The notes beneath the pieces were generated by a model. It saw only the letters and a program-made list of their open reading frames with translations, ran no database searches and was not told where the DNA came from. From Spirochaetaceae bacterium (lineage in GTDB: Bacteria > Spirochaetota > Spirochaetia > B11-G9), in NCBI GenBank assembly GCA_015493635.1, contig WGCU01000087.1, positions 1-42,265 of the forward strand: a stretch of DNA of 42,265 bases, in the 5' to 3' direction. A program made the position numbers and the translations under genes. Positions 7,505-29,945 of this stretch are shown here, piece by piece. Each line of letters starts with the position of its first letter. Position 1 is the first letter of the stretch.

Positions 7505-7610
7505 ATATTCCTCGATTGACGGACACGCTACTATTATTTTCGTCAGTTGTAAAGGCACTGACAACCGAAAAGTATAAATTGGATAATTATTCTTAAACGA
7601 GTGAGTGGAG

Positions 7611-7631
7611 CGGGACAACTTGTTGGTCCCG
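7611..7631. repeat. short hairpin next to the compound palindrome
   Basis: CGGGA-CAAC and GTTG-g-TCCCG pair with a single bulged G. It lies about 20 bp before the larger cloverleaf element (7654-7742) and may belong to the same intergenic element. Confidence 0.5.
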
Positions 7632-7653
7632 TTCCCAAGCGAGTGCAGAGAAC

Positions 7654-7742
7654 GAAAGGTTAAAATACCCCGCGGCTTGCCGCGGAATAGGCCGCGACAG
7701 CGGACTGGGTCCAGGGTTTACCCTGGGGTATTGAAACCTTTC
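7654..7742. repeat. 89-bp compound palindrome with a cloverleaf-like fold
   Basis: The outer arms GAAAGGTT-aa-AATACCCC (7654-7671) and GGGGTATT-ga-AACCTTTC (7725-7742) pair over 16 bp with one 2x2 mismatch. Inside lie three hairpins: CCGCGGC/GCCGCGG (7670-7685), CCGC/GCGG (7692-7703) and CCAGGGT/ACCCTGG (7711-7726). The first and third overlap the inner end of the outer stem by 2 bp each. The element is GC-rich, sits between the divergent glycosyltransferase and adk genes, and ends 10 bp before the adk -35 box. It could be a REP/MITE-like dispersed repeat, a cruciform-forming regulatory site, or a structured RNA. Confidence 0.7.
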
Positions 7743-7751
7743 ATTTTCAAC

Positions 7752-7780
7752 TTGCAAAGAAATCATTCTTTTTGTAGAAT
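7752..7780 (+). promoter_or_regulatory. sigma70-like promoter of the first adenylate kinase gene
   Basis: TTGCAA (7752-7757), a 17-bp spacer and TAGAAT (7775-7780). The predicted start is 7787-7788, coincident with the ATG at 7788. There is no ribosome binding site, so a leaderless message is likely. Confidence 0.65.
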
Positions 7781-7787
7781 GGCAGTC

Positions 7788-8363
7788 ATGATAAATATTG
7801 CGCTTTTCGGCCCCCCGGGAGCGGGTAAAGGGACCCAGGCAAAGCTTCTTGTCGAGGCATACAATATCTGCCATATCTCGACAGGAGATATCCTCCGCAG
7901 GGAGATGAGAGAACAATCGCCTCTTGGCCTTGAAGCAAAGGAGTTTATTGATTCAGGAAGACTTGTATCCGATGAAATAATTGTTAAAATTATCGAAAAA
8001 ACCATCAAAAGCAACCCCGGCAGCCGCGGTTTTCTCTTTGACGGATTTCCCCGGACGTACCTTCAATCCTACATTCTTGAAGGAGTAATGTCCAAACTGC
8101 ATAAAAAACTCTGCTGCCTTATCAGTATTGAGATTCCGGAGGACGTTACTGTTGCGAGGCTTATAGAACGAGGAAAAACCTCCGGACGGTCGGATGATAA
8201 TGAAGCGGTTATCCGGGAACGGCTAAAAGAATACTACAAAAAAACCCTCCCTGTTCTCACATACTTCGAAGAGGTTGGAATCTGTTTCCGGGTAAACGGA
8301 AACGACACCGTAGAAAACGTACACAGGCATATCAGGAAAATTATAGATAAACAGCTCAAATAG
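7788..8363 (+). CDS. adk: adenylate kinase, short-LID type
   Basis: This enzyme interconverts ATP + AMP and 2 ADP. The 191-aa protein has the P-loop GPPGAGKGTQ (residues 8-17), the AMP-site STGDILR, the FDGFPRT motif, and the LID start ERGKTSGRSDDN with the Arg and Asp residues expected. The LID is short and has no zinc-binding Cys cluster, as in AK1-type enzymes. The ATG at 7788 is chosen because the kinase fold starts there; an open frame continues upstream through the palindromic DNA but is not credible as protein. The next gene encodes a close paralogue, so this is a tandem duplication. ADK is normally single-copy and essential; which paralogue is the housekeeping enzyme is unclear. Confidence 0.92.
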   Translation: MINIALFGPPGAGKGTQAKLLVEAYNICHISTGDILRREMREQSPLGLEAKEFIDSGRLVSDEIIVKIIEKTIKSNPGSRGFLFDGFPRTYLQSYILEGVMSKLHKKLCCLISIEIPEDVTVARLIERGKTSGRSDDNEAVIRERLKEYYKKTLPVLTYFEEVGICFRVNGNDTVENVHRHIRKIIDKQLK

Positions 8364-8428: not shown

Positions 8429-9598
8429 ATGTTAAATATAGCACTTTTCGGACCTCCCGGAGCAGGGAAAGGGACTCAGTCAAAGTTTCTTATCGATGAA
8501 TATAATCTGCACTACATTTCTACCGGAGATATCCTCAGAAAGGAAATCGCGGAGCAGTCGGCTCTCGGACTTGAGGCTCAGAGCATTATTGCGGTAGGGG
8601 GACTCGTATCTGATGAGATCATCGTTCAGATAATAGAAAAAACAATTACAGGAAACCGTCATGCGGAGGGTTTCCTCTTTGACGGTTTTCCAAGGACCTA
8701 CATTCAGGCGTACATCCTCGAAGGGTTAATGATAAAGCTCCACACAAAACTGGACTGCCTTATCAGCCTTGACGTTACGGAAGATGTCTCAGTCCAGCGG
8801 CTTCTCGAACGGGGAAAAACCTCCGGACGGTCGGATGACAACGAAACAATAATACGGAACAGATTGAAAGAATACAGGGAGAAAACCCTCCCCGTCCTTA
8901 ATTTCTTTAAAGACAAGGGGATTTATCACAAGATCAACGGTGTTGATACCATTGAAAAAGTAAACACCCAGATCAGGAAAATTGTCAATAAAGAGCTGAG
9001 TAAAAAATTACTTAATATCGTTCTTTTCGGCTACCCCGGCTCAGGGAGAGGTTCTCAGGGGAAAGCCCTCGCAAAGAAATTCAACCTTGAATATATTGCA
9101 ACAGGAGACATGCTCAACGAGGAAATAAAAAAGGGAACGGCAATTGGAAATGAAATCAAGGAACTCTATGAAAACGGGAACCTTGTTTCCGATGAGCTGG
9201 TTGTCCGTCTTATAGAGAAAAAACTACAGGAATCAAAAGATGTCCGGGGATATATTTTCAAAGGATTCCCACGGACTCTTGTACAGTCTTACATCCTTGA
9301 CGGTTTGATGCAGAAACACGGTTCTTCCATTTCAAAAATAATTGAGATTGAGGTTCCAACGCTGGAACTTATAAACCGCCTTGACGCCCGCAGTAAAACT
9401 GAAAACTGCATGCCCTATGATACAAGCACATCACGGATAATAAAACGGTTAAAGGAACATGAAGAGAAAACTATTCCGGTTATAGAAAAATACAACAAAC
9501 TGCACGGTGTCATTAAAATTAATGGGATGGGTTCTTTCGAGGAAGTACTGGACAGGATCTCCAAAGCGGTGGAACATTCATTCAAGGATATTACGTAG
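8429..9598 (+). CDS. double-domain adenylate kinase with a degenerate second domain
   Basis: A 389-aa fusion. Residues 1-190 form an apparently intact adenylate kinase closely similar to the upstream gene (GPPGAGKGTQ 8-17, FDGFPRT, ERGKTSGRSDDN). Residues about 193-389 form a second kinase-like domain with altered key positions. Its P-loop reads GYPGSGRGS (201-209), with Arg in place of the catalytic Lys. FDGFPRT has become FKGFPRT, and the LID motif has become ARSKTENCMPYD, losing the Arg/Asp signature. The second half is probably a pseudokinase or allosteric/scaffold module. A frameshift is unlikely because the reading frame runs through the linker (KELSKKLLNIVLFG) without disruption. Confidence 0.85.
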   Translation: MLNIALFGPPGAGKGTQSKFLIDEYNLHYISTGDILRKEIAEQSALGLEAQSIIAVGGLVSDEIIVQIIEKTITGNRHAEGFLFDGFPRTYIQAYILEGLMIKLHTKLDCLISLDVTEDVSVQRLLERGKTSGRSDDNETIIRNRLKEYREKTLPVLNFFKDKGIYHKINGVDTIEKVNTQIRKIVNKELSKKLLNIVLFGYPGSGRGSQGKALAKKFNLEYIATGDMLNEEIKKGTAIGNEIKELYENGNLVSDELVVRLIEKKLQESKDVRGYIFKGFPRTLVQSYILDGLMQKHGSSISKIIEIEVPTLELINRLDARSKTENCMPYDTSTSRIIKRLKEHEEKTIPVIEKYNKLHGVIKINGMGSFEEVLDRISKAVEHSFKDIT

Positions 9599-15938: not shown

Positions 15939-16604
15939 GTGGTGAATGTTCTCGACTTTACCCACATAATAAATGAACAAGCTGTATTTCCGGGGGATGA
16001 TCCCCCGGAATTTTTTTCCCACTGCACTCTTGAAAAAGACGGATTTCTCGAAACACGCCTTAATATCAGCTCTCATACGGGAACCCACATGGATGCTCCC
16101 GCTCATATGATTAAAGGAGGCGCCTTTCTCAATCAGTTTTCTCTGGAAAAATATATGGGAACCGGAATCGTGGTACATGTGCCGAACAACTATCCCGGGC
16201 AGCCCATTGGCACAGAAAATCTGAGCTTTCTCGAATCATACAGGGGAAAAATCGACTTTGTACTGCTGTATACCGGGTGGAGCAGGTTCTGGGGACAGAA
16301 AAGGTACCTCCGTGATTTCCCGGTACTTACCGCAGCAGCTGCGCTACAGCTTTCAACATTCAATCTCAAGGGAATCGGAACCGACACAATCTCTATTGAC
16401 CCTATGACATCGGAAGATTTTGAGAATCACAGAATATTTATGACCCGGAATATTGTAATTATAGAAAATCTTGCCAACCTGTCAGCTGCCCCCCGGGGGA
16501 CGTTTCCCTTTTTCTGCATACCGCTCTTTTTTGAAAAGGCTGACGGGTCTCCAGTAAGAGCCTTCACCTACCTTCCTGCTTCAGGGTCTTTGGAAAGTAT
16601 ATAA
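15939..16604 (+). CDS. cyclase-family metal-dependent hydrolase (kynurenine formamidase-like)
   Basis: A 221-aa member of the cyclase/KynB family. The signature HTGTHMDAPAH near residues 47-57 supplies the metal-binding His/Asp residues. A second conserved stretch, GIGTDTISID near 146-155, is also visible. Family members hydrolyse formylkynurenine or related amides and esters; the true substrate here is unknown and no tryptophan-degradation gene is near. The start is GTG at 15939 (GTG at 15942 is equally possible), 2 bp after the activase stop, so the two are co-transcribed. Its 3' end overlaps the convergent channel gene by 37 bp. Confidence 0.85.
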   Translation: MVNVLDFTHIINEQAVFPGDDPPEFFSHCTLEKDGFLETRLNISSHTGTHMDAPAHMIKGGAFLNQFSLEKYMGTGIVVHVPNNYPGQPIGTENLSFLESYRGKIDFVLLYTGWSRFWGQKRYLRDFPVLTAAAALQLSTFNLKGIGTDTISIDPMTSEDFENHRIFMTRNIVIIENLANLSAAPRGTFPFFCIPLFFEKADGSPVRAFTYLPASGSLESI

Positions 16605-17965
16605 TCCGCGTACTTTCGGTCCTCCCCCATTATATGGTCGGTGAGCCAGGATATAAGAAAATCTGCAATATTCTCTGAAAATATATAATCCTTGTTTTTA
16701 TTCAGAGCTTTCACCTCACGAACCAGCCGCTGATGTTCTTTCTTGTGTTCTGCAAGGGCTGGAAACCCGTATTTTTCCATAAACATTTCTTCATTTTTAA
16801 AATGTTCATCAGTATATGCAATAAGACTGTCAAAGGTTGCAGCAATGATCTTTTTCTCATCTTTCGTATGTAAAGCGGCAATAAAAGTATTAACAAGAGA
16901 GAGAAGCTGCTTATGCTCTGCGTCCATAAGAGGTATGCCGAGGGAGTATGTTTCATCCCATGCCAGTTGGTGATACGTGGGAACCCCCGTTTCAGCTTGA
17001 AGATCTTCCTCCCCTTCATCATGAATAAGAAGCAGTATCTGATCATTTCTCGAAACAACAGTTTCCCCCGGAGGATCTTTTATCTTCATCCCTACTCGCT
17101 TTTCAACCATCAGTGCTTTTACCGCATCAGTTGACGAAATAATATCATCTATCGTTGTTTCCGTGTCTTTGAAATGTTTGTACAGGCGCAGCGAATATCC
17201 CATTATCCCGCTCGTTGTTACTTCAAGATGATCGGTTTGATGATCTTTACTGTACTCGGATATGATAAGCCGGGCCATCTGCTGCCCGCCGAGTTTTAAT
17301 GGATAGATAACAGAGTTAGCACCCGCACGGATCATCCGTTTTTCACCGTCCGCCTTGTAGCCTCTCACAAATATGAGCAGGTCAGGATTCATCTCCCGCG
17401 CTGCAAGGGAAACATACATATTAAGGGAATCGTCTCCAAGGCAGATAACAATACCCCGGGCTTCCTTTATTCCCGCTTCCAGAAGCGTCGCATCATAGGT
17501 TGCTTTACCCAGAACGACAAGATAATTCTGGAGCTGGGCGTATTCGGCAATCTTCGTGTTGTTCTCTATAACAACAAAGGGGATAGCGGCTTCCTTAAGG
17601 GAAATACTGATAGAGGATCCGATATCTCCGAAACCGCAGATTATGTAGTGATTAGATAGTTTCTTTATCTTTTTTCTCATTTTGTTTGCTCCGAAAATAG
17701 CCTTAAAGTTTTTTTCAATAAACTCTCCTGCCAGCTGTGTAGCTAAAACAGCCGCCGTACTTAACCCTAAAATAATAAAGAAAATGGTAAAAACCTCACC
17801 GGCAGGAGAAAGCGGTTTTACTTCTCTGTATCCGACCGTTGTAATGGTAATAATTGTCATGTAGAATGCCTGCAGCAATGTCCAGGTACCTTCGATAAAA
17901 TAGTAACCGAAGGTTCCAACAGCAAATACAAGCAGTATAATAAATATTCTCAGTCTCTTGCTCAT
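16568..17965 (-). CDS. two-TM potassium channel fused to an RCK (TrkA) module and a bacteriohemerythrin domain
   Basis: An inner-membrane channel of 465 aa. TM1 (about 5-24), a pore loop with TTVGYRE (42-48) and TM2 (about 56-80) form a minimal K+ channel. The filter reads TVGYR, with Arg in place of the last Gly of GYG. A TrkA-N/RCK domain follows with the NAD-type loop GFGDIG (111-116) and an acidic E134, then a TrkA-C domain (about 245-315). Residues about 334-457 are a full bacteriohemerythrin domain with all seven iron ligands: H351, H388, E392, H407, H411, H444, D449. It starts 7 bp after the deacetylase stop, with AGAGGT, as the last gene of the pel operon. Gating by O2, NO or iron state is inferred; the fusion is unusual. 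Confidence 0.9.
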   Translation of the reverse strand: MSKRLRIFIILLVFAVGTFGYYFIEGTWTLLQAFYMTIITITTVGYREVKPLSPAGEVFTIFFIILGLSTAAVLATQLAGEFIEKNFKAIFGANKMRKKIKKLSNHYIICGFGDIGSSISISLKEAAIPFVVIENNTKIAEYAQLQNYLVVLGKATYDATLLEAGIKEARGIVICLGDDSLNMYVSLAAREMNPDLLIFVRGYKADGEKRMIRAGANSVIYPLKLGGQQMARLIISEYSKDHQTDHLEVTTSGIMGYSLRLYKHFKDTETTIDDIISSTDAVKALMVEKRVGMKIKDPPGETVVSRNDQILLLIHDEGEEDLQAETGVPTYHQLAWDETYSLGIPLMDAEHKQLLSLVNTFIAALHTKDEKKIIAATFDSLIAYTDEHFKNEEMFMEKYGFPALAEHKKEHQRLVREVKALNKNKDYIFSENIADFLISWLTDHIMGEDRKYADYILSKDPEAGR

Positions 17966-17972
17966 AGTACCT

Positions 17973-20357
17973 CTATTTATTAAAGGTGAGAACAGCTTCT
18001 GAACTTCTTATCTCTACCACTGCCGCGTCAACATTTTTATAGGTGTATAACACCTTCCCTCCGGTTACCGAAAGCAGGATTTTGCCCTGGTAGCGTATCC
18101 GGATTACAACCCCCGGTTCCCGTGCCTTAACGTTCAGTACCTTTCCGTCCTGCTGAATATCTATGCTTTTTTCATCAAAGGTTCTCATGGCACGATATCC
18201 GTTGGTCGCGTTGAGTGCTGTCAGCCACGGATAGTTGGTTTTAATAAAAGCTATCATCTGTTCAAAACTCTTTTTGAGCCCTGCCCAGTCCTTTCCCTGA
18301 CTCCTGTTTTTATCAAAAATATCATCCGCGTGGATAAAATGGCTCCAGAGTCCCGGACCGAGAATTCCGGAAATGATATCCGCTTTAATTCCCGGATCAA
18401 AGATGTAACCAGAGGTAATCCGCGGCATCATGTAGATATCGGGGAACTCTTTATTCCGGCCAAAATCATACACTTCTCCTTTACCTTCTCCTGAACGGAC
18501 CGTACTGACCGCCTTTATGGTAGGGAACACATGGTGTAGGGCTCTAATGCCGTCCTGGGATATTATATTGTGGGGGGCTACGTACGTACAGGGAAGACTG
18601 TATCTGCCGAACAAACGAATCCACTCCCTTTTTGCGTGATCGAACGCAACCTCCATCTCTTTCTCGGAAGACCAGAGAAATTCATTAATAGCAGTCTTTT
18701 TCAGGGTCGGTGAAACATGGTTATATCCATGCAGACCGAGATCTATACCGTCAGCCAGTTCCCCATATCCGATTTTACTTGGTTCATTGCCGCTGGCAAC
18801 ATAAAATTCTCCTGTTTCAAAGGGAGGCTTTGTCTCTGCATTGTAATTAAAGATAGCAAAGCTGGAAAAAGGAAGCCCTTCCCGCTTCAGGAGTGCTTTT
18901 ATATCCGGCCACCAGACCCGGGAATAGAAAGCTGTATCGGTAATCTTTAACGGGGGTTTTACTTCGTTATACATGGGAAGGGGCCAGTCATCTATGTACA
19001 TAATACTCAATGCCGGTGTTGCAGCAACACCAACCGGCTGAGCATACAGAAATGATTCAAGAATATATCCCAGATATTCACCAAAGATAAAGTTGTCCCA
19101 GTTCCACACAAGAACCTTTCCATTTTTAACCTTTGCAGTCCATAGAAGAGGAACCCTTCCGCTGTAATCGGTAGCCAGAATGTCAGCACTTTTAACCGGA
19201 ATACCGTATCCGGGGCTCCACTCAGTTTTCCTGTCATTTATCGATGTTTCCTCTCCGGTAAAAAACCCGTTTTTAATTCTGTAGCCGGTTGAATCCCTGA
19301 TAAACGATCTGTTTTTTGCAATACCAAGATACGGTGCAAGTTTGTCAAACCGGGCGCTCTCAAGTGATACGATGCTGCCTCCTCCCGTTAAAAACCGGTC
19401 TAGAATGGCTGGATTAAGACCCGCGTCAGAGGTAAGAATCAGCCCGGCGGCGGTAAAGGGGCGGAGATCAAGGGGAACCATCCCCCGGAACTCCCGGGAG
19501 CTAATAATGGTGTAGGGTATTTTTGCCCGTTTTAAATTACTTTCAGTGTACTCCAGAATTTTACCGGTGTGACTGTCTGCAGGATCGGTAAGGAGTGCGA
19601 TATTCTCTCCGGCAGCTTTAGGAAAGAGTGCTTCTGTTAAAAACATCTCCGGATTGATAAGCAGCTTTACCTTACCGTTCTCCACCCGGTAGAGATATCT
19701 GCTTAACGCGAAACCGCCGTTTCTGTTGGTCACAATAACAGGGCTGGGATCATACTTCTTATCCGTACGTTTTACCGCAAGCCAAATCTTCTTCTTTCTG
19801 TCGGAAGATATAAACCGGTAGAAAAATGCTGATTTTTTTACATCCTGTTTCGTCTGATATTCAACCATGGAGGGAACCATCGTAGTAATCTTCAGCTTAC
19901 TTCCGTCCTGGGTCCAATCACCGAAATACATAATACCCAGACGGTCCAGGGTAGTATTCAGACGGAGAGGTTTAACATACTCTTTCGTATCACGGTCCTG
20001 ATAGGCACCAAAATTATCAAGAACAAGAACCTTCTTCCCCTCCTCCATCATGGAATCCAGAAAGTTGAGATATGCGTAGGGCTTTTTCATGGAGGGCCCC
20101 CGGAACCAGGAGATAACAGCGCGGGAATACTGTGTCAGACTTTTCCCCGGAAGCCCCTTGTCTATGTCCCAGTATGTTATCTTGAGCCCCATTTTTTTCA
20201 AGGGGACTGACAGATAAAAATAGATTTCATTCTCTTTTGCAGTCTGCCCCTCCGACGATTTATACAGGGCAAGAACAGTCCTCTCATAACTTTCCGCGGA
20301 AACTGCAGTAAGAATAGTAAAAAAAAGTATAATTATTACCCCTATTCGCTGTTTCAT
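17973..20357 (-). CDS. PelA-like DUF2194 polysaccharide deacetylase
   Basis: A 794-aa exported protein (signal peptide about 1-22) of the DUF2194 type. It probably N-deacetylates the Pel polymer during export. The NodB-type deacetylase region shows MYIDDWPLPM (Asp pair near 456), GLHGYNHVSP (metal His residues near 543 and 547) and YVAPHN (third motif). The N-terminal half is a flavodoxin/amidotransferase-like region without the glycoside hydrolase domain of Pseudomonas PelA. The start is placed at 20357, six bases after AGGAGG, which overlaps the stop of the preceding gene. An upstream start at 20435 would overlap that gene by 68 bp and is rejected. Position in the operon supports the Pel assignment. 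Confidence 0.82.
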   Translation of the reverse strand: MKQRIGVIIILFFTILTAVSAESYERTVLALYKSSEGQTAKENEIYFYLSVPLKKMGLKITYWDIDKGLPGKSLTQYSRAVISWFRGPSMKKPYAYLNFLDSMMEEGKKVLVLDNFGAYQDRDTKEYVKPLRLNTTLDRLGIMYFGDWTQDGSKLKITTMVPSMVEYQTKQDVKKSAFFYRFISSDRKKKIWLAVKRTDKKYDPSPVIVTNRNGGFALSRYLYRVENGKVKLLINPEMFLTEALFPKAAGENIALLTDPADSHTGKILEYTESNLKRAKIPYTIISSREFRGMVPLDLRPFTAAGLILTSDAGLNPAILDRFLTGGGSIVSLESARFDKLAPYLGIAKNRSFIRDSTGYRIKNGFFTGEETSINDRKTEWSPGYGIPVKSADILATDYSGRVPLLWTAKVKNGKVLVWNWDNFIFGEYLGYILESFLYAQPVGVAATPALSIMYIDDWPLPMYNEVKPPLKITDTAFYSRVWWPDIKALLKREGLPFSSFAIFNYNAETKPPFETGEFYVASGNEPSKIGYGELADGIDLGLHGYNHVSPTLKKTAINEFLWSSEKEMEVAFDHAKREWIRLFGRYSLPCTYVAPHNIISQDGIRALHHVFPTIKAVSTVRSGEGKGEVYDFGRNKEFPDIYMMPRITSGYIFDPGIKADIISGILGPGLWSHFIHADDIFDKNRSQGKDWAGLKKSFEQMIAFIKTNYPWLTALNATNGYRAMRTFDEKSIDIQQDGKVLNVKAREPGVVIRIRYQGKILLSVTGGKVLYTYKNVDAAVVEIRSSEAVLTFNK

Positions 20358-20367
20358 TATCATCCTC

Positions 20368-23300
20368 CTACAGAGATAAAAGTTCAGGCAGTCCCGCATC
20401 AGCACCAAGCTCAACGGTAAATGACCAGTAATCAAAATTGCCCTTTACCGACCCGGAAAATTTCAGGTAACCATTAAAATCTTTATTGGTAAACGTAACC
20501 TTGTTACTCACATCAAGAGAGAGCCCTTTCCCCTGACTATCCGAATAGTAGCCGGCATAGATTCGGAGGGCATCTGCCAGAGATTGATCATCCTCAGTGT
20601 TAAAAACTGCTGACAGATCAACGGCACCTCCGGTATTTATTGCATTATCCGGAGCCCAGTATGTGTGAGAGAATCCGGCAGACGCGCTGTCCCAGGAGAA
20701 GCTGCCCGTTATACCCATCAGTAATTCAGGTTTTTCCAGCAGTGAAAAATTGTTGGAGATCTGGGAAGACAACCCGTACAGCGTATTACCATCCGCAACA
20801 AGACGGGAATACCCGGACAAAGAAAACGTTGTATCCTGTATAACCGGTTTCTTTATAAACCCGAAATCCACCTGAACACTTCCACTGCCCTCCTGATACG
20901 AGACAGGAGTATCCCCGGGCTGAAAGGTTTCATCAAGCCAGTTGTATACATAACCGGCATCAAAGATAAAGGGGCCGGTAACAGCTTCAATATCCGCTCC
21001 GGCAAAAGGGTAGGGACTAAATACTGATAAAAGAGAGCGGGGAGTCGTATCAGCAGAGTATGCCGCTCTCCCGGTACTTGTTACCAGATTTGAAAGGAGC
21101 GATATACCCGCAGAGGGAGTAACTGATACCTTTCCAAGGTTTACCTGTACCCCCAGAGAAAGTGACTGCAGAAAAGATGTCGGTGTATAGGTATGAGAAG
21201 AGTAGGTATAAAGAGTGTTTTGAACTGTGTAGTCAAGCGTATACCCAAAAATACCGTTAATGCCCTTTTTATACTGGGTATCCCCGGTAAAAGACTGCTG
21301 AGAGGAATCGAAAAATGTCGTTCCGATAAAGGTCAGTTGATCAGCGTGATCCCTGGCAAGACGGTTGTAAAACGCGGTAACATTGCCGAATAACGGATCT
21401 TCGTTGTAAACTTCCCTATAGAGTTTTTGCGCTTTAGCCCAATTTCCGTTACGGTCATATACCTGTGCCAGCTTATATTTTGCGCTGATATTCCACGGCT
21501 CTATGGCAAGTACCTGCCTGTATTGAGCAATAGCTTCAGGGTACTCCTTCCGGGTTTGATAAAAATCACCAAGTTCATTTCTCAGTCCGTAGGTATTCTC
21601 CGCAAGATTATAGAAATTCTGCAGCATCCGTGCCTTTAAAAAGGCATGGATCTTCTTAATCGTTTCTTCTACATCCCTTCCTGATTTTCTAAGTCCATCG
21701 TTGAAAGCAGTGTATTCCTTCAGTATGCTCTTTATGTTTCCGGCAGGATCATCGGTTAAAAACCCAAGGATATCTTCATCATCCGTTGACAGGAGGTGTA
21801 CGTAGTCCACAAGATCAGGTACGTAATCCGCAGCGGATTCTATTGCATCCTTGTTTTGATCATACATAAGAAGACTTTCCTTATCTTTTCCCATCCAGAG
21901 ATCAGTTTGAAAAAGGGCAAATGCCGCTCCTTTGACTTTACGGTTATTTTCAAAAACGGCAAGATTTTCCCGGGCAGATTTTAAATCCCCTTCAAACTGG
22001 TAGATAACCCCAAGATCATAATCAGCTAAAATAAGACCATCCTTCTTTACTGTTTCAAGCTCATCGAAAGTACTGCTTCGATCCCACTGCCAGTTTGATC
22101 CCTCTGTCAGTTTCTTGAAGGCTTCCGTTTTACTCTTTTCCTCATCCATCAGCCGGTTTAAATATTCTTTGTCATCAGCATACCGGCTCATGATGCTTTT
22201 ATATTTTTCTACAAATGATTCTTTTGCAGTGATAAGAGATGCCAATGCATCTCCTGTTGTTTCTACCTGCCGGGTAAGGGCATTCTTTTCATCGGCAGTA
22301 ATTTTATCTCCCTTTTCCTTCAGCAGTTTATTTTTCTTCGTAACCGCGTCATTATACGCTGAATAAGCTGATGAGAGCGCTTTACGTGAGCCCGAAATAT
22401 ATTCAGGTACCTTTTTCAAAAAATTATACAACGCATAGGATTTATCAAGGATTTCAAAAAAACGCGACATATCTTTCCGCGTTGCCCGCAGATTCCTGTA
22501 TCTATAGTTTGTAAGGATATTGAGGTATTCACGGATTGCCTCTTTTTTATAGCCGTTCCAGAAATACATTTCTGCCAGGGTTTTCCGCAGGCGGAGGTTA
22601 TCCGGATCGTTAGCAAGATCTGTTTCATACTCTTTAAGTACCCCTTCCCTCATTTTCTGTTTGTTGTTAAAATTCTGAAGCGCCTGTTCAACCTCAGGGG
22701 TCTTGATAAAGGTATCTGCAATCTTTTTCTGTAATGCAGGAATTTTATCTCTCTGCCCTGAGTGGGAATAAGCTTTTTCAAGGGAAAAATACAACTCAAG
22801 ATATTCAGGATGCTTATCAATTGCTTCCAGGTAGGTTTCCACTGCTTTATCCGGATATCCGTTTATAAGGAAAATTGCAGCAAGTTTTTTGTACTGCTCT
22901 ACATCGTCACCGACAAGAAGTTTCACCTGCTCGAATACCTTCTGGGCATTTACATCATCGGAATTCCAGAGGTAGGTAATACCAAGATTTGCGAGGAGAT
23001 TCAAATTCCCGGGAAACTGTTTCAATCCGTCTTTGTAGAAAGAAATTGACTCACCGTACTGCCCTATCCATGCGGCAACCTTACCTGCCTCGGCCCAGTA
23101 ATCCAGCTTTTCAGGTACAATTTCAAGAAGATCCCTGTATTCAGCTAATCCGTCACTGAACGAGCCTTTCCATATAAGATTCTTTGCTATAAGCAGTTCT
23201 ATATCAGGATCATCCGGCTGGAGCAGCAGTGCCTTCCGTAAATTCTTGAGAGCATTCAGATAATCTCCAACAAGAGAGTAAACCATTGATATTTCTACAT

Positions 23301-24024
23301 AATTTTCTGAATTCTCCGGATTATCCCGAATAAGAATTTGATAATCCTCAATTGATTTAAAAGGGTTATCTATCGACCTGTCATTCAGGTCTTTCGGGAA
23401 AACGCGGGGAAGCTTCCCGGACAGAACCGGTTCCCCCTTCTCTTTCCGTACGAGAAAGAAGTTATCTATATAAAAGAAGTATTTATTGTCGTATCCCCGT
23501 TTAAAGGGAACTTCAATTCTCAGGCGGTGTTCTCCTGCTGACAAATCCACATCTTTTACATAGTTCCAGTAATAGGCCGGAGCATAGTTACTGACAACGT
23601 GCATATTTTCCCGGTATATATCACTTTCATAAAGTTTATCGATGGTAAGTTTAAAGGGTGATGCATAGGACGGAAGCAGTTCATTTTTGTTTCCGGGAGG
23701 TGTACCACCGTACCAAAGTTCGTAGGTTCCGTCTTTTTCAGCATAAAATACGTAATCGGCAAAATAGGAAGAGCCTTCAGGAGGATCTGCTTTCTCATTA
23801 AGCTGTAACGTTCTATATCCGGAACAGCTGTAATTCAGTATCGGCTGACGGTTAAAATTTGTTGACAGAGCGTCTTCTCCCTCAACAAATATTATATCCG
23901 GATTCGTTTTTGGCAGAACCGCGGTAATTTTTTTACTTGATGAAGCAGATTTCCCTGTTTGATCCTGCGCAGAGAGTACCGATACCACCATACATGCTAA
24001 AAGTATAAAAATATATTTCTTCAT
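20368..24024 (-). CDS. PelB-like export protein: carbohydrate-binding-like domain, TPR arrays, coiled coil and C-terminal beta-barrel
   Basis: A 1218-aa envelope protein, probably the periplasmic scaffold and outer-membrane pore of the Pel machine. Order: signal peptide (1-19); a beta-sandwich resembling CBM6-type modules (about 40-205, with VEGEDALS near the start); TPR repeats (about 225-480); an Ala/Lys/Glu-rich coiled coil (about 545-670); more TPRs (about 675-905); and about 300 residues of alternating strands suggesting a porin-type barrel. P. aeruginosa PelB has TPRs plus a barrel and works with the lipoprotein PelC. No pelC is present here, and the N-terminal sugar-binding-like domain is extra. 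GGAGG precedes the ATG. The next gene starts within its stop region. The barrel and the CBM-like call rest on pattern only. Confidence 0.75.
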   Translation of the reverse strand: MKKYIFILLACMVVSVLSAQDQTGKSASSSKKITAVLPKTNPDIIFVEGEDALSTNFNRQPILNYSCSGYRTLQLNEKADPPEGSSYFADYVFYAEKDGTYELWYGGTPPGNKNELLPSYASPFKLTIDKLYESDIYRENMHVVSNYAPAYYWNYVKDVDLSAGEHRLRIEVPFKRGYDNKYFFYIDNFFLVRKEKGEPVLSGKLPRVFPKDLNDRSIDNPFKSIEDYQILIRDNPENSENYVEISMVYSLVGDYLNALKNLRKALLLQPDDPDIELLIAKNLIWKGSFSDGLAEYRDLLEIVPEKLDYWAEAGKVAAWIGQYGESISFYKDGLKQFPGNLNLLANLGITYLWNSDDVNAQKVFEQVKLLVGDDVEQYKKLAAIFLINGYPDKAVETYLEAIDKHPEYLELYFSLEKAYSHSGQRDKIPALQKKIADTFIKTPEVEQALQNFNNKQKMREGVLKEYETDLANDPDNLRLRKTLAEMYFWNGYKKEAIREYLNILTNYRYRNLRATRKDMSRFFEILDKSYALYNFLKKVPEYISGSRKALSSAYSAYNDAVTKKNKLLKEKGDKITADEKNALTRQVETTGDALASLITAKESFVEKYKSIMSRYADDKEYLNRLMDEEKSKTEAFKKLTEGSNWQWDRSSTFDELETVKKDGLILADYDLGVIYQFEGDLKSARENLAVFENNRKVKGAAFALFQTDLWMGKDKESLLMYDQNKDAIESAADYVPDLVDYVHLLSTDDEDILGFLTDDPAGNIKSILKEYTAFNDGLRKSGRDVEETIKKIHAFLKARMLQNFYNLAENTYGLRNELGDFYQTRKEYPEAIAQYRQVLAIEPWNISAKYKLAQVYDRNGNWAKAQKLYREVYNEDPLFGNVTAFYNRLARDHADQLTFIGTTFFDSSQQSFTGDTQYKKGINGIFGYTLDYTVQNTLYTYSSHTYTPTSFLQSLSLGVQVNLGKVSVTPSAGISLLSNLVTSTGRAAYSADTTPRSLLSVFSPYPFAGADIEAVTGPFIFDAGYVYNWLDETFQPGDTPVSYQEGSGSVQVDFGFIKKPVIQDTTFSLSGYSRLVADGNTLYGLSSQISNNFSLLEKPELLMGITGSFSWDSASAGFSHTYWAPDNAINTGGAVDLSAVFNTEDDQSLADALRIYAGYYSDSQGKGLSLDVSNKVTFTNKDFNGYLKFSGSVKGNFDYWSFTVELGADAGLPELLSL

Positions 24025-24039
24025 TCCATTCCTCCGTCA

Positions 24040-25416
24040 TTAAAATTGACTGAAAAGCTTTTGATCAAAGGTTAAGATTCCCCTGTATAGAAAGACAAGA
24101 GCACAGACTGTTCCTCCCGCTCCTGCAGCAAGGTATCCTGCACCATAGTACGGAATATTAACCGATACCCCATACAATGTAACACCAAAATTAACAGAAA
24201 AAAACAATAATGCAGCAATAAATGTCTCTTTATACTTTTCAATATAAAAGAGAAATGTCAGGGTTGTAAGAAAGAGCAGATTAAAAAAAAGCGCTCCTAA
24301 GGTGATACGAAGAGTAAGCACGGTGGAAACACCGTTCATCAGGGTGTTTTTTAAAACCGGAGCCAGAATAATAAGCACAAAGGTAATCGTTCCCTGGAAA
24401 AGCGCCTCTTCTGTTATACTTGTTTTGACTGTTTTTAAGAGACTGTGTTTACTCCCGGCTATGTTCGAAAGATTACTTGTACTCATCTGGAGAAGAAGGC
24501 GTTTTAAGGAAACAAAATAGTTTGATTCTGAAAATATCATAAAATAAACGAGTCCCGGTATAATGGTTAAATTAGCTAAATACACAGACATGTCGTAATC
24601 GGCAAAAAGCCTGATAAACGTTCCGTATACAGAGCCCCCCTTAAGGTTCCACAGTACTATTTTGTCTATCCAGATACCGGTTGAATAGAAAATACCTGTC
24701 AGGAGAAGGAACTTGTACTTGCCGAAGTACCCAAGAAGCGGCTGCAATTCTCTGAGAAAGGGTGCAGGGCTGGAACTCAGAAAAATAAGCAGCAGTAACG
24801 ACAAAAGAATAAATACCTGTCCGGTACAGAAACCAGCAAGAGCTCCGCTTAAAAAGAAATGCTTCCCCAGGAACATGGCTGCAAAAATGGAAACCGCCAT
24901 TCCGGCGAGATAGATAAAAGAGATAACCATGTACCGTTTGAGCAATGTTATATATATCATAACAAGCCAAATAAGGTTGATGGAAATAAAAAGAATAACC
25001 GCAGAGACTTTGAACATAAAAGGATAGGCAACAGTAGGAATGTGCATGTTTAACACAGCAATAACAGCCGGTATACCAGAGAGAACCATTATACCGAGAA
25101 TGGCCAGAAGGAGGGCTCCAAACGCACGGCGCTGCTTTTTTATGTAGATAAGGTCTGAAATATACCGGGTAAATATGTAGTGGATTCCTCCAAAGAGTGA
25201 CAAGGAAAAGGCGTAAGAATAAACAATCACCGCTGTAAACAGGCTCCCTCCTTCAAGGAGTGCCGAAGCCGCGGCACGGTACAGGAAGAAGATACCGATT
25301 ATTGACAATAACCAGGGACCGGCAACGATAATAATACCGGCCAGAGCAGCCTTAAAAACACTGCTTACTCCCCCCTTCCGCAGTACCTTTTGAAGTTCAA
25401 ATCCTATTCCTGCCAT
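24040..25416 (-). CDS. pelG: Pel exopolysaccharide inner-membrane transporter PelG
   Basis: A 458-aa polytopic membrane protein with about 12 hydrophobic helices, similar in arrangement to MOP/Wzx flippases. The N-terminus MAGIGFELQKVLRKGGVSS is the characteristic PelG opening. It is thought to move the growing Pel polymer across the inner membrane together with PelF, PelD and PelE. Its ATG overlaps the PelF stop by one base (TAATG), so translation is coupled. It lies between the cytosolic glycosyltransferase and the periplasmic/outer-membrane component, as in other pel operons. Confidence 0.92.
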   Translation of the reverse strand: MAGIGFELQKVLRKGGVSSVFKAALAGIIIVAGPWLLSIIGIFFLYRAAASALLEGGSLFTAVIVYSYAFSLSLFGGIHYIFTRYISDLIYIKKQRRAFGALLLAILGIMVLSGIPAVIAVLNMHIPTVAYPFMFKVSAVILFISINLIWLVMIYITLLKRYMVISFIYLAGMAVSIFAAMFLGKHFFLSGALAGFCTGQVFILLSLLLLIFLSSSPAPFLRELQPLLGYFGKYKFLLLTGIFYSTGIWIDKIVLWNLKGGSVYGTFIRLFADYDMSVYLANLTIIPGLVYFMIFSESNYFVSLKRLLLQMSTSNLSNIAGSKHSLLKTVKTSITEEALFQGTITFVLIILAPVLKNTLMNGVSTVLTLRITLGALFFNLLFLTTLTFLFYIEKYKETFIAALLFFSVNFGVTLYGVSVNIPYYGAGYLAAGAGGTVCALVFLYRGILTFDQKLFSQF

Positions 25417-26807
25417 TATTCTACCCCAAGTCTCCTGTATAGTTCACGGTATTTGTCATACAGATCGTTCTTGTTGTACAAACGTTCAACCTTCTCCCTG
25501 TTCTTTTTTACTTCCTCCTGCATTATATCCGGATGAGCATGAATGTAGAAAACATTTCGTGAGAGCCGTTCAGCATCCTTGGAGGATGCCAGAAACCGTT
25601 CATCATACTCAAGCATTTCAGGGACGTTCCCTACCCGTGTTGAGACAACAGGAATCCCCGCCGCGTATGCTTCCAGAATAACAAGAGGCTGTGCTTCCCG
25701 GACACTTGTTAACAGCAGTACATCAAGGAAAGAATAATACTCAAGAACATTTTGCCGGCCGGTAAACTGGAATACATCTGTCAGGTTGAAACTTTCCACC
25801 ATCCGGACACAATCTTCATAGTAGGCGGGATCCTCATCTGTCGGGCCAATACAGTAAAACCGGGCCTCCTTAATATGGTCATACACTATTTTAGACATGG
25901 TAATAAACGTTTTAATGTCCTTTATGGGGACAACTCTTCCTACAAGCCCCACATGGAAGCCGTCTCTGTCTTCACGTTTAACAGATGAAAAACGCTCTAT
26001 ATCAATCCCGTTTGGGATAACAACCGCGTTTTCCGGTTTTGCTCCCAGAGAAAGCTGTATTCTCCGGTTATACTCAAAAAGGGACGTTGATATATCTGAA
26101 TAATGGTACGACACCCTGCTCAGGGTATTGTAGATCTTGATCCACATATCCCGTTGATATCCCCGGAGGAATGCTGCCTTTCGCAGTTCCATTTCCCTTT
26201 CTTTATGATACAATCCATGCTCCGTCAGGAGAAACGGTTTATGAAGACGGATCTTTGCGGCAACCGCTGCAAGTCCTGCATATCCGGTTGAAACTGAATG
26301 GTAGATGTCCGCTTCCGGAAGGGTGGCCCCAAGAATGGTAAAAATCATGTTATGGGAAGACCGCCATGCCCAGAAATAGTCAGAAAATGCGTACACAGGA
26401 TTGTTCATCCTGTTCAGAGTTTCAATCATCTTCCAACCGACAGAACTTTTTACAGCTGTTTCATACGCATAGAACCCTTCCGGCATATTTGCTATTATTT
26501 CCTCCAGCCCGGGAACAGCTTTATTTCTGAATACTTCATGCATTTCTTTTATAAGTTTTAATGTTCTCCCGGGATGCTTCATTTTTTTTTCTGATTTTTG
26601 CAGATGCGAAAGTATTATATCTTTGTGTTCGACGACATTTTCAGGCAGTTTGTATTTTAGGGTCTGCTTATCATCGGGAGAAATACTGAAAAGCGAAAAC
26701 TCTATCTCCGGCATTCCCTGGATAAGGTCATGAACCCACGAAGAGACCCCTCCCGTAATATAGGGATACGATCCCTCAAGGATAAAACAAACCCGCAGCG
26801 GTTTCAT
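25416..26807 (-). CDS. pelF: Pel polysaccharide glycosyltransferase PelF
   Basis: A 463-aa cytosolic GT4-family glycosyltransferase, the polymerase-type enzyme of the Pel pathway (UDP-GlcNAc/GalNAc-type donors in the known systems). The N-terminus FILEGSYPYITGGVSSWVHD matches the PelF signature. The donor half contains GLVGRVVPIKDIKTF near 285-300 and REAQPLVILEAYAAG near 385-400, an E-x7-E motif. Length is close to that of known PelF proteins. The start codon overlaps the upstream gene's stop (ATGA). The assignment is strong because both the sequence signature and the neighbours agree. Confidence 0.93.
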   Translation of the reverse strand: MKPLRVCFILEGSYPYITGGVSSWVHDLIQGMPEIEFSLFSISPDDKQTLKYKLPENVVEHKDIILSHLQKSEKKMKHPGRTLKLIKEMHEVFRNKAVPGLEEIIANMPEGFYAYETAVKSSVGWKMIETLNRMNNPVYAFSDYFWAWRSSHNMIFTILGATLPEADIYHSVSTGYAGLAAVAAKIRLHKPFLLTEHGLYHKEREMELRKAAFLRGYQRDMWIKIYNTLSRVSYHYSDISTSLFEYNRRIQLSLGAKPENAVVIPNGIDIERFSSVKREDRDGFHVGLVGRVVPIKDIKTFITMSKIVYDHIKEARFYCIGPTDEDPAYYEDCVRMVESFNLTDVFQFTGRQNVLEYYSFLDVLLLTSVREAQPLVILEAYAAGIPVVSTRVGNVPEMLEYDERFLASSKDAERLSRNVFYIHAHPDIMQEEVKKNREKVERLYNKNDLYDKYRELYRRLGVE

Positions 26808-27565
26808 TGTTCATCCCCAAGCCAGTAGTACAGAAGCATTTTCCTTTCAGCTGGCAGATCCTCAGCTTTTTCCCTCAGCTCTCTGCATAAGGGGAAAACA
26901 AGATCATACTTTTTCATGGCAAAGGCTATTTCTGCCTTTAAAAAGAGATAATCAGTATCCTTTTCGTTACTTTCCCTCTCCAAAATATCCATCGCGTTTC
27001 TGTACAGCTGCAGTTCAAGAAGAATACGAACCATCAGGCCAAGCTCTTCAATGGTAAGCTTCCGATGGGCTCTGACAAAGTTCATCCGGCTGTATGCTTC
27101 CTTGAAATAGAATTTTTTTATACTAACCCGGCTTCCGTTAATCATGGCCAATTCAAAAAATATTTTCCCGAGCTCCGAATGGACTTCGCTGCTTTCATCA
27201 TTGTCTTTTTCAGGGTCTTTTGCAAGCAGCTCCTTTAACTGTTCTATCCTGCTGTTATATCTATTCTCGATAATATTTATACTTTCCGCGGCAAATAACG
27301 CTGTTTCCTGATCATGAGAGTATATCAGCTTCTCAAAAATCCCTATAAGAACAACATTTGCCTCAAGATCAAGATCTTTCCTTGATAAAAGGCGTTCAAT
27401 GGCCTCCATATCAAAGGGCTCCTCATTAAGAGGTTTTGTGGATCCTGATTTAAATATGAACATTTCTATAGGATTAAAACCTGTTTCATAGGCTTTTAAC
27501 GCCGCCGCGGGAGTCTTTGGCCGATACAGTTCCCGGCTGCTCTTGAAAAATTCAAACCCTTCCAC
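26804..27565 (-). CDS. PelE-like helical repeat protein
   Basis: A 253-aa all-helical protein with TPR-like repeats (for example FELAMINGSRVSIKKFYFKEAY and DYLFLKAEIAFAMKKYDLVF) and no membrane segment. It occupies the pelE slot between pelD and pelF. Pseudomonas PelE has TM helices followed by TPRs that contact PelD; here only the repeat part is visible, so it would be cytosolic and possibly bridge PelD and PelF. A GTG start at 27565 lies 3 bp after the PelD stop, preceded by AAGG. The PelE role is inferred from position and fold, not from clear sequence similarity. Confidence 0.65.
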   Translation of the reverse strand: MEGFEFFKSSRELYRPKTPAAALKAYETGFNPIEMFIFKSGSTKPLNEEPFDMEAIERLLSRKDLDLEANVVLIGIFEKLIYSHDQETALFAAESINIIENRYNSRIEQLKELLAKDPEKDNDESSEVHSELGKIFFELAMINGSRVSIKKFYFKEAYSRMNFVRAHRKLTIEELGLMVRILLELQLYRNAMDILERESNEKDTDYLFLKAEIAFAMKKYDLVFPLCRELREKAEDLPAERKMLLYYWLGDEQ

Positions 27566-27568
27566 GTA

Positions 27569-28981
27569 CTACACCTTCTGCATTTCAAGAAGCTGCTCGG
27601 CACCTTCAAGCAGTTCATCAATACTCTGTTTTTCTTTACTCGTTGCAGCGTATCCGAAAACCACCTCGAAATGGACATCCTTGTCATCAATACTCCATGG
27701 CGTGGATGAAATCATGCTCAGACTCTGAAAACAGAAGAATGCCGCGCCATCATAATCTATATTGGGATAAAAAACAGCAAACTGGTTCTGTTCTTTGTAA
27801 TGGAAAATATCAATCTGGTTATCAGACAGTTTCATTATTTCTTCAAAGAATTTCATTAAAAGCGCATAGGTTTTAGACTCACCATATTCCGAAAGGATCC
27901 TGTCAAACCCTGTAATTTCCATAATGACAACACTGAAAACTCCCTCTTTTTTAACCGCCTTGTCCATTTCCTTTTCAACGACAGCCATAAACTGTGAAGG
28001 AGAAGGAAGTCCCGTAAATGAATTAACCTCAGCATGTTTAATCATCAATTCATATTCAACCGCCCGTTCAATGGCCGGCCCCGCAAGATCAACAAGAATG
28101 GACAGAATTTTCTCAGTATACAGGTTAAACTTTGTAAACGGCATACTTTCGATATTGAGGACTCCCCAAGTAGTATTGGAGATGTTAATCGGATACGTAA
28201 GAATATTACGCTCCGTATTCATCTTTGAAAAAACTTCATAGCCAAGAAGCATCCGGACTGAAAACATCTTGTTATTTCGAAAAACCCATCCGCTTACTGA
28301 TGAATCAGCACTTTCCACCGTGTACAAAATATCATCGGTACCCCAGCCTATGTTTGCTATCATGACAAGGCTGTTGCTCTCTTTCTGATATTCCCATATT
28401 GAAGCTTTCTCAGCCTGAATAAACTTCTGTACGGTACTTAAAAAGATATTGAGGCTCTTTGTCAAGTTCTGAGAATGAAGTGCTCCTATCTGGCTGTACA
28501 ATGAGGTTATGGAATCATTCTGAAGAAGAACCCGCTCTTCAAACTCACGGTTTACCGCCTCTACCCCTTTCAGCTCTTTTTGAAGTTTTATTTTTTCCCG
28601 TGCTGTTCTCCGTATAAACTTTCTCTGACTGTTTATAACAGCGGTAAACGACTTCTGAATCATTCCAAAGATATAGACTGCAGCTATTACGAAAGACAGA
28701 TATATATAGTGTTCTCTAAAAATATGTTTCCAGAATAAGAACATTGTCCCGGATATTTTCAGGGGGAGAAGCATAAAGACAAGTGAAATACCCAAACTTG
28801 CATACCCGTATCCCCTTCCATAATAAGCTGAAATTAAAACCGCTGAGAAAAAATAGGGGTTAACCGCAAGATGCCAGAATCCATAATCGTTCGGATAATG
28901 GAGATTAACAAGCCATATTACGAGGGTAATAAAAAACAGCTCTGCGGGAATAATTATCTTTCTCTCTCTCTCACTAATCAT
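27569..28981 (-). CDS. pelD: PelD-like membrane receptor with GAF and degenerate GGDEF domains
   Basis: A 470-aa inner-membrane regulator of Pel synthesis. It has about four N-terminal TM helices (about 10-112), a short coiled coil (about 130-165), a GAF domain (about 170-310) and a degenerate GGDEF domain (about 315-465). In the catalytic position EQNQF (397-401) replaces GGDEF, so it is not a cyclase. In known PelD the RxxD inhibitory site binds c-di-GMP; here the aligned residues read NQID (388-391), with Asp kept and Arg lost. Start 28981 overlaps the HDOD stop (ATGA); an ATG at 29002 is possible. The domain order and neighbours make the PelD call firm, while c-di-GMP binding is uncertain. 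Confidence 0.85.
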   Translation of the reverse strand: MISERERKIIIPAELFFITLVIWLVNLHYPNDYGFWHLAVNPYFFSAVLISAYYGRGYGYASLGISLVFMLLPLKISGTMFLFWKHIFREHYIYLSFVIAAVYIFGMIQKSFTAVINSQRKFIRRTAREKIKLQKELKGVEAVNREFEERVLLQNDSITSLYSQIGALHSQNLTKSLNIFLSTVQKFIQAEKASIWEYQKESNSLVMIANIGWGTDDILYTVESADSSVSGWVFRNNKMFSVRMLLGYEVFSKMNTERNILTYPINISNTTWGVLNIESMPFTKFNLYTEKILSILVDLAGPAIERAVEYELMIKHAEVNSFTGLPSPSQFMAVVEKEMDKAVKKEGVFSVVIMEITGFDRILSEYGESKTYALLMKFFEEIMKLSDNQIDIFHYKEQNQFAVFYPNIDYDGAAFFCFQSLSMISSTPWSIDDKDVHFEVVFGYAATSKEKQSIDELLEGAEQLLEMQKV

Positions 28982-29826
28982 ACAAGAAATATTTCCTGAC
29001 ATTCCGCAAAAAGAGGATCTTTCTCTATAAAGGGTAAAAATTCATGTTGGAAATAGAGAATATCCTCAGCATCCATATGAAGAAAACTGACAAGTTCCAG
29101 AAATAAATCATCATCTACATACCGGCCCTGCCCGAATCCTATTTTCTCTGTCAATAAATCAGCAAGCGTAACCGTATAAATAATGTTTTTATAGATGGAC
29201 TGAACATTCCGGTTACCATGTTCTTCAGCTACAGCAACGTACATGTCAGGGAAATTCCACTTGCGGAGTATAAATCCTCCCAATTTACGATGATCGGTAT
29301 TAAAGAGTGACTGTTCAACCTTTTCAACAGAAGAAACAGCCTGCTCATTGGTCAGTAAATCACGGTATCTGTCCGGATATCTCTGAAAAAGCGCTACCTG
29401 CCCAATATCATGGAGAAGGCCTGCTATAAATACAGACTCTTCATCCTTACGGTCTTTATTTCTTATAAGGATCTGCTTGGCAATAAATGCTGTAGCAAGT
29501 GAGTGCCTCCAGAAGCTGTTTAATACCTCCCTGTTTTTCAGTTCCCGGGAAAATCTAGAAGCAGTAAGAAGGATAACGAGACTTTTGATTGTCTTAAACC
29601 CCAGTAGTCCAATAGCCATCTGCAGATTAACAATTTCACTCTGACGGGCATAGAGAGCGGAATTGGCAATTTTAAGAATTTTCGCCGTGAGCATAGGATC
29701 AACACTGACAATTCCCTCAAGTTGCTTGAAAGAGATGTCTATATTGTCTTCAGCAATAGACATTATTTTCGAAGCAACAGCCGGTATAATAGGAAAATCA
29801 TTGAGGTATTTTTCAAATTCATGCAT
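28978..29826 (-). CDS. HDOD-domain regulator, first gene of the pel operon
   Basis: A 282-aa cytosolic protein made mainly of an HDOD domain, the catalytically dead HD-GYP relative used in signalling. Features include FPIIPAVASKIM near residues 10-25, VSVDPMLTAKILKIANSA near 40-57, and GLLHDIGQVALF near 140-152. HDOD proteins act in chemosensory and c-di-GMP-linked control without hydrolysing nucleotides. The start at 29826 is chosen because AGGTGG lies 5 bases upstream. Its stop overlaps pelD, so it is made with the Pel machinery and is a candidate input or partner for the altered PelD. The target is unknown. Confidence 0.87.
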   Translation of the reverse strand: MHEFEKYLNDFPIIPAVASKIMSIAEDNIDISFKQLEGIVSVDPMLTAKILKIANSALYARQSEIVNLQMAIGLLGFKTIKSLVILLTASRFSRELKNREVLNSFWRHSLATAFIAKQILIRNKDRKDEESVFIAGLLHDIGQVALFQRYPDRYRDLLTNEQAVSSVEKVEQSLFNTDHRKLGGFILRKWNFPDMYVAVAEEHGNRNVQSIYKNIIYTVTLADLLTEKIGFGQGRYVDDDLFLELVSFLHMDAEDILYFQHEFLPFIEKDPLFAECQEIFLV

Positions 29827-29909
29827 AATAACCACCTGGGAAGAGTTCTCCTTTTTAGAATCGGCATATTACACAATAACCTTACTATCTCCATAAGTAA
29901 AAAAAGCAC

Positions 29910-29945
29910 AAAAAAAGCTGCCCTTTTCAAGGACAGCCTTTTTTT
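29910..29945. terminator. bidirectional rho-independent terminator
   Basis: GCTGCCCTT and AAGGACAGC (29917-29937) form a stem with one G.U-type mismatch, flanked by seven A residues on the left and seven T residues on the right. On the minus strand it ends the RRM gene and separates it from the pel operon start. Confidence 0.88.

Follow-up and report, generated by a model that had tools for sequence, protein, structure and literature searches.

A hemerythrin-fused 2TM-RCK channel at the tail of a spirochaete pel gene run is a rare, patchy module that usually lies apart from pel

The window, by which we mean the whole analysed stretch of 42,265 nucleotides, is contig 87 of a 101-contig, 3.27-Mb genome. 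Its host is a marine-type spirochaete; among named genomes of the public collection, MAGs labelled 'Spirochaetia/Spirochaetes bacterium' come closest to it. Eight minus-strand genes run from position 29835 down to 16568, and a terminator-like hairpin lies ahead of them:

29910..29944, minus strand: strong terminator-like hairpin between an RRM gene and the HDOD gene, separating the upstream RRM gene from the run
28978..29835, minus strand: HDOD protein, heading the run (PF08668, E 2e-50)
27569..29002, minus strand: PelD-like protein with N-terminal hydrophobic region, GAF and degenerate GGDEF (domain search, alignment A3)
26804..27565, minus strand: PelE-like TPR protein, flanked by pelD and pelF (TPR match weak; kept in the family)
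25416..26807, minus strand: PelF glycosyltransferase (NCBIfam NF038011, E 5e-104)
24040..25416, minus strand: PelG (PF16933, E 1.5e-80)
20368..24024, minus strand: TPR protein with predicted outer-membrane barrel, in a PelB-like position (TPR families, weak PgaA/BcsC matches; barrel inferred)
17973..20357, minus strand: DUF2194 protein, likely a periplasmic deacetylase (PF09960, E 2e-86)
16568..17965, minus strand: 2TM-RCK-hemerythrin channel of 465 aa (PF07885, PF02254, PF01814)

Neighbouring genes of the run overlap by 25, 4 or 1 bp or are separated by 3, 15, 10 or 7 bp. The first-pass annotation, which had described eight overlapping or closely spaced minus-strand genes, is thus borne out by open reading frames, domains and junctions. 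It had placed the HDOD start at an ATG at 29826, for which we give the GTG at 29835. For DUF2194, the ATG at 20357, which follows an AGGAGG, was preferred over the TTG at 20435 of the longest open reading frame. The channel ATG is preceded by AGAGG and does lie 7 bp past the DUF2194 stop, as had been claimed, with no terminator-like site found in this junction. Across the region 31 promoter-like sites were counted, which is the level expected by chance (31.9 in shuffled sequences). Since the junctions are tight, the last one shows no terminator, promoter-like sites do not exceed chance and the hairpin sits upstream of HDOD, co-transcription of the channel with the pel run is likely in this genome, as far as sequence can indicate. 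At its 3' end the channel gene overlaps a convergent cyclase-family gene (15939-16604) by 37 bp.

PelF and PelG occur together in the run, both far above the cut-offs of NF038011 and PF16933. The PelD-like protein has GAF and GGDEF-like domains without a canonical GGDEF motif, its RxxD (the c-di-GMP binding I-site) is not conserved in alignment A3 as judged by eye, and a solved-structure search with it did not match the P. aeruginosa PelD structure. DUF2194 aligns with the solved protein 9zau (E 5e-48; record name 'Predicted membrane protein, putative') including the YIDD and HGYNH stretches, and only weakly with the PelA structure 9cgy (E 0.58). It is a likely candidate for the PelA-type deacetylase of spirochaete pel operons. 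DUF2194 is also present in pel loci of distant spirochaetes (L089, L091, L098). As in the known Pel operons (P. aeruginosa pelABCDEFG; Gram-positive pelDEADAFG), pelD, a pelE-like gene, pelF, pelG and a deacetylase candidate stand in one run. Unlike those operons, the run is headed by HDOD, has DUF2194 as its deacetylase candidate, contains no recognised hydrolase domain or PelC and, in the two linked genera (g1 and g2) only, has the channel as tail gene. The Pel operon papers in the literature searched, which mostly excluded subscription papers, mention neither spirochaetes nor DUF2194.

The three domains of the channel are encoded in one open reading frame and all score above the Pfam cut-offs: Ion_trans_2 (residues 9-79), TrkA_N (107-222) and hemerythrin (343-454). 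With a two-TM pore that has a filter and an RCK N-lobe with GxGxxG, the protein has the features of the 2TM-RCK (MthK-like) class. Pore and RCK find their best solved match in MthK (E 1e-24 over residues 7-241), and the closest solved structure to the hemerythrin domain is DcrH (E 1.5e-14). The AlphaFold model was poor (mean pLDDT 59) and too weak for a fold search. The diiron ligands are H351, H388, E392, H407, H411, H444 and D449, i.e. five His, one Glu and one Asp, and all seven are kept in the alignment of the six fused channels of the family. Their arrangement matches H-HxxxE-HxxxH-HxxxxD, the canonical ligand spacing of characterised hemerythrin sensors (PMC9388753). The three Pfam domains and the intact ligand set agree with the earlier description of the last gene as a 2TM-RCK-hemerythrin channel.

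That description had also called the protein a potassium channel; its K+ selectivity is uncertain because of the filter. Residues 43-47 read TVGYR, codon 47 being AGA (17825-17827), whereas the five fused family relatives have TVGYG or TIGYG and a homologue from another spirochaete family (G035) also has G in fifth position. On this account the pore might not be a K+ channel at all, the filter rendering it non-selective or silent; we consider this very unlikely, since R, Q, K or S is common here in the wider class and represents a natural state, not decay, and a single-base assembly error could also lie behind the codon. Of 118 distinct homologues, 45 have G as the last of the five filter residues, 19 have R, 17 Q and 14 K. 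With R in 19 homologues, the residue is natural in 2TM-RCK channels, and we dropped the notion of a broken pore. K+ selectivity nevertheless cannot be assumed for the window channel. In a large 2TM-RCK class the last filter glycine is replaced by R, Q, K, S or A (e.g. TVGFQ, TVGYR; homologues in L010-L179); no description of the ion selectivity of such channels was found in the literature searched.

The family sample consisted of the eight genomes of the order, including that of the window, all of them in a single GTDB family; the relatives are all fragmented assemblies. PelG was found in all eight. The fused channel was found in six, the five relatives being 66-70% identical to the window channel, and not in G005 and G007, perhaps because these assemblies are incomplete. 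As far as the contigs reach, the order HDOD-pelD-E-F-G-TPR/barrel-DUF2194 is identical across the family. In the genus g3 genomes G002, G003, G004 and G006, channel and pel are on separate contigs, the surroundings of the channel contain no pel gene, and its usual next gene encodes an MFS protein. DUF2194 is followed in G006 by an unrelated AAA_14/DUF4143 gene, and in G004 by an unrelated hydrolase-like lipoprotein gene and others.

A different picture was obtained for G001, a member of a sister genus. The contig that carries its DUF2194 gene (C133) breaks off within an amino-acid permease gene, and the channel contig (C132) starts with the remainder. The contig ends share 10 bp, which among several hundred contigs is weak evidence by itself; joined, however, the two halves form one uninterrupted reading frame for a permease-Usp protein of 758 aa, and this completion makes the join convincing. 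The resulting order is DUF2194, a 54-aa ORF, permease/Usp, channel and a convergent gene for a 1450-aa activator-like protein, the last being common to G001 and the window. The linkage is therefore shared by two genera, while its content changed between them. Trees gave no clear answer as to a clade uniting the channels of the window and G001. The insert between DUF2194 and channel (L041/L085) consists of the amino-acid permease fused to a universal stress domain and of the 54-aa ORF; the permease has no counterpart in the other seven genomes of the family at E 1e-15. We also considered that it might be a KimA-like K+ importer forming a K+ cassette with the channel, but this was ruled out by its matches to amino-acid transporters such as 5oqt.

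A search of 296 sampled Spirochaetota gave RCK-channel matches at E 1e-25 in 68 genomes and PelG in 16. None of the RCK-channel matches outside the family covered the hemerythrin domain. Eight non-family genomes have both an RCK channel and PelG (G014, G027, G039, G054, G064, G094, G142 and G165), in none of them on one contig. The pel contig of G054 (L087, G054:C257) matches that of G004 at 99% identity along 5 kb and, as the two genomes belong to different families, it is probably a contaminant or a binning error.

These counts bear on the central claim of the first-pass annotation, that the channel belongs functionally to Pel and may link oxygen, NO or redox state via membrane potential to the matrix. 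The channel directly adjoins the pel run on the same strand, the linkage in G001 with other intervening genes indicates that it outlived rearrangement, and one known path to biofilm runs through hemerythrin enzymes that turn over c-di-GMP under redox control (PMC9388753). Yet channel and pel are apart in four of the five family relatives that have both and in all eight such non-family spirochaetes, so that linkage holds for two of the six family genomes with a channel and for none outside; moreover, the usual neighbour in g3 is the MFS gene, and in G001 the channel directly follows an amino-acid permease. The linkage that the search of relatives was meant to reveal was thus recovered in G001, by contig joining, and failed in the other four. 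Conserved linkage, the mark of a dedicated Pel component, is absent, and we regard a role as Pel part as unlikely.

A close homologue without the sensor is that of G035, which is 66% identical over residues 1-317 and keeps pore and RCK, the hemerythrin being absent. A larger draw of 393 Spirochaetota yielded no further close relative. We had assumed that the fusion was confined to the family of the window, until it was found in G475, a member of the Desulfobacterota, whose fused channel is 50% identical over residues 8-459. G475 is the only genome with a fused channel among 395 in the phylum of a Geobacter relative and among the 22 genomes of its class in the collection; the neighbours of its channel are leuCD and DUF1329-like genes (named by eye from the translations), and here, too, the channel is unlinked to pel. 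A search at strict thresholds, and without a positive control, of the phylum to which a Nitrospirota relative belongs (246 genomes) found no fused match. A public contig scan gave no match with the single window channel protein and 80 loci with the channel alignment; apart from three family genomes, these loci showed neither a neighbouring pel gene nor a hemerythrin fusion. Given its occurrence in the family and G475, the separate contigs and the hemerythrin-free G035 homologue, the fused channel is a rare, patchy module that is usually independent of pel.

The G035 homologue also shows that the channel can work without hemerythrin. The domain could accordingly act as a store or scavenger of O2 or iron at the membrane, merely tethered by the channel and not gating the pore, and for the hemerythrins of P1B-5 ATPases both sensing and iron roles are still entertained. 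Against this stand the retention of the domain with all its ligands in six of six family members and the recurrence of the fusion in a different phylum, and we hold such a tethering role to be improbable.

A steadier companion of pel is HDOD. It was found on the pel stretch in 10 of the 11 non-family pel loci that were fetched, the contig of the eleventh ending near pelG; the same search, for which HDOD served as positive control, detected no channel in any of the 11. In L088-L097 (the pel loci of G040, G027, G165, G129, G014, G176, G070, G094 and G142), HDOD is often convergent with pelG, whereas it heads the operon in the family of the window. In Spirochaetota, HDOD thus has the look of a conserved partner of Pel that has gone undescribed. 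The pel linkage illustrates that genes packed as tightly as in an operon in a single genome do not necessarily form a functional unit, because sister genomes show that the channel is optional there and HDOD the steady companion.

Among known systems, MthK, a Ca2+-gated K+ channel, has the same order of pore and RCK, but it lacks hemerythrin and its filter is TVGYG instead of TVGYR. RCK rings open 2TM pores upon ligand binding, as in MthK. DcrH-Hr, Bhr-DGC and Bhr-HD-GYP share with the window protein a bacteriohemerythrin with the canonical ligand motif; their output is a chemoreceptor or c-di-GMP enzyme and not a channel. In the P1B-5 ATPases of Acidothermus and Sinorhizobium a hemerythrin-like domain is likewise fused C-terminally to an ion-transport protein, which however is a pump, and the motif is the variant HxE in place of HxxxH. 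YugO of Bacillus subtilis is an RCK-type channel discussed in biofilm electrical signalling; the likeness is one of description only, both being RCK-type, and to our knowledge YugO is not part of a matrix operon.

The literature searched, with most subscription papers outside its coverage, contained no paper that joins pelF/pelG with hemerythrin, which agrees with the earlier statement that no described system combining Pel and a hemerythrin channel was known. 'Potassium channel', hemerythrin and RCK met in one paper only, a plant nutrient-sensor review, and the hemerythrin sensor review (PMC9388753) mentions no channel. The hemerythrin-fused channel is thus apparently a rare, undescribed protein.

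The reading that we consider fairly probable from the sequence comparisons is that of a self-contained, redox-gated channel, usually located away from pel, that in the window genome and G001 came to stand at the end of the pel run. The protein would be an MthK-type cation channel with 2TM pore, RCK gating ring and C-terminal bacteriohemerythrin, a stand-alone module and not part of the Pel machine. Bacterial hemerythrins such as those of Bhr-DGC and Bhr-HD-GYP switch the activity of their partner between diferrous and diferric states (PMC9388753). Correspondingly, the diiron site of the channel would be diferrous when reduced and diferric after exposure to O2, its oxidation state most likely altering the gating ring and, through it, cation flux. 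A presumably anaerobic cell might in this way adjust its membrane potential or cation balance when it meets oxygen. If this holds, the channel would represent a novel means by which a cell converts oxygen, through a built-in diiron sensor, straight into an electrical or ionic signal.

In the window genome and G001 the channel is probably made from the same transcript as the matrix genes. The linkage could be under selection in this lineage, to judge by the 7-bp spacing in the window and the overlapping run of G001. In the linked genera the diiron-gated channel might then be produced together with the Pel machine, oxygen shifting membrane potential and matrix at once, which appears to us distinctly unlikely. 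Matrix control would be at best an added use in g1 and g2, since channel and pel lie apart in most relatives; for the same reason, a dedicated oxygen-to-biofilm circuit is not supported.

Elsewhere in the window, a 389-aa ORF (8429-9598) looks, by eye, like two tandem adenylate-kinase-like units, and a further adenylate-kinase-like gene, also recognised by eye, adjoins it at 7605-8363.
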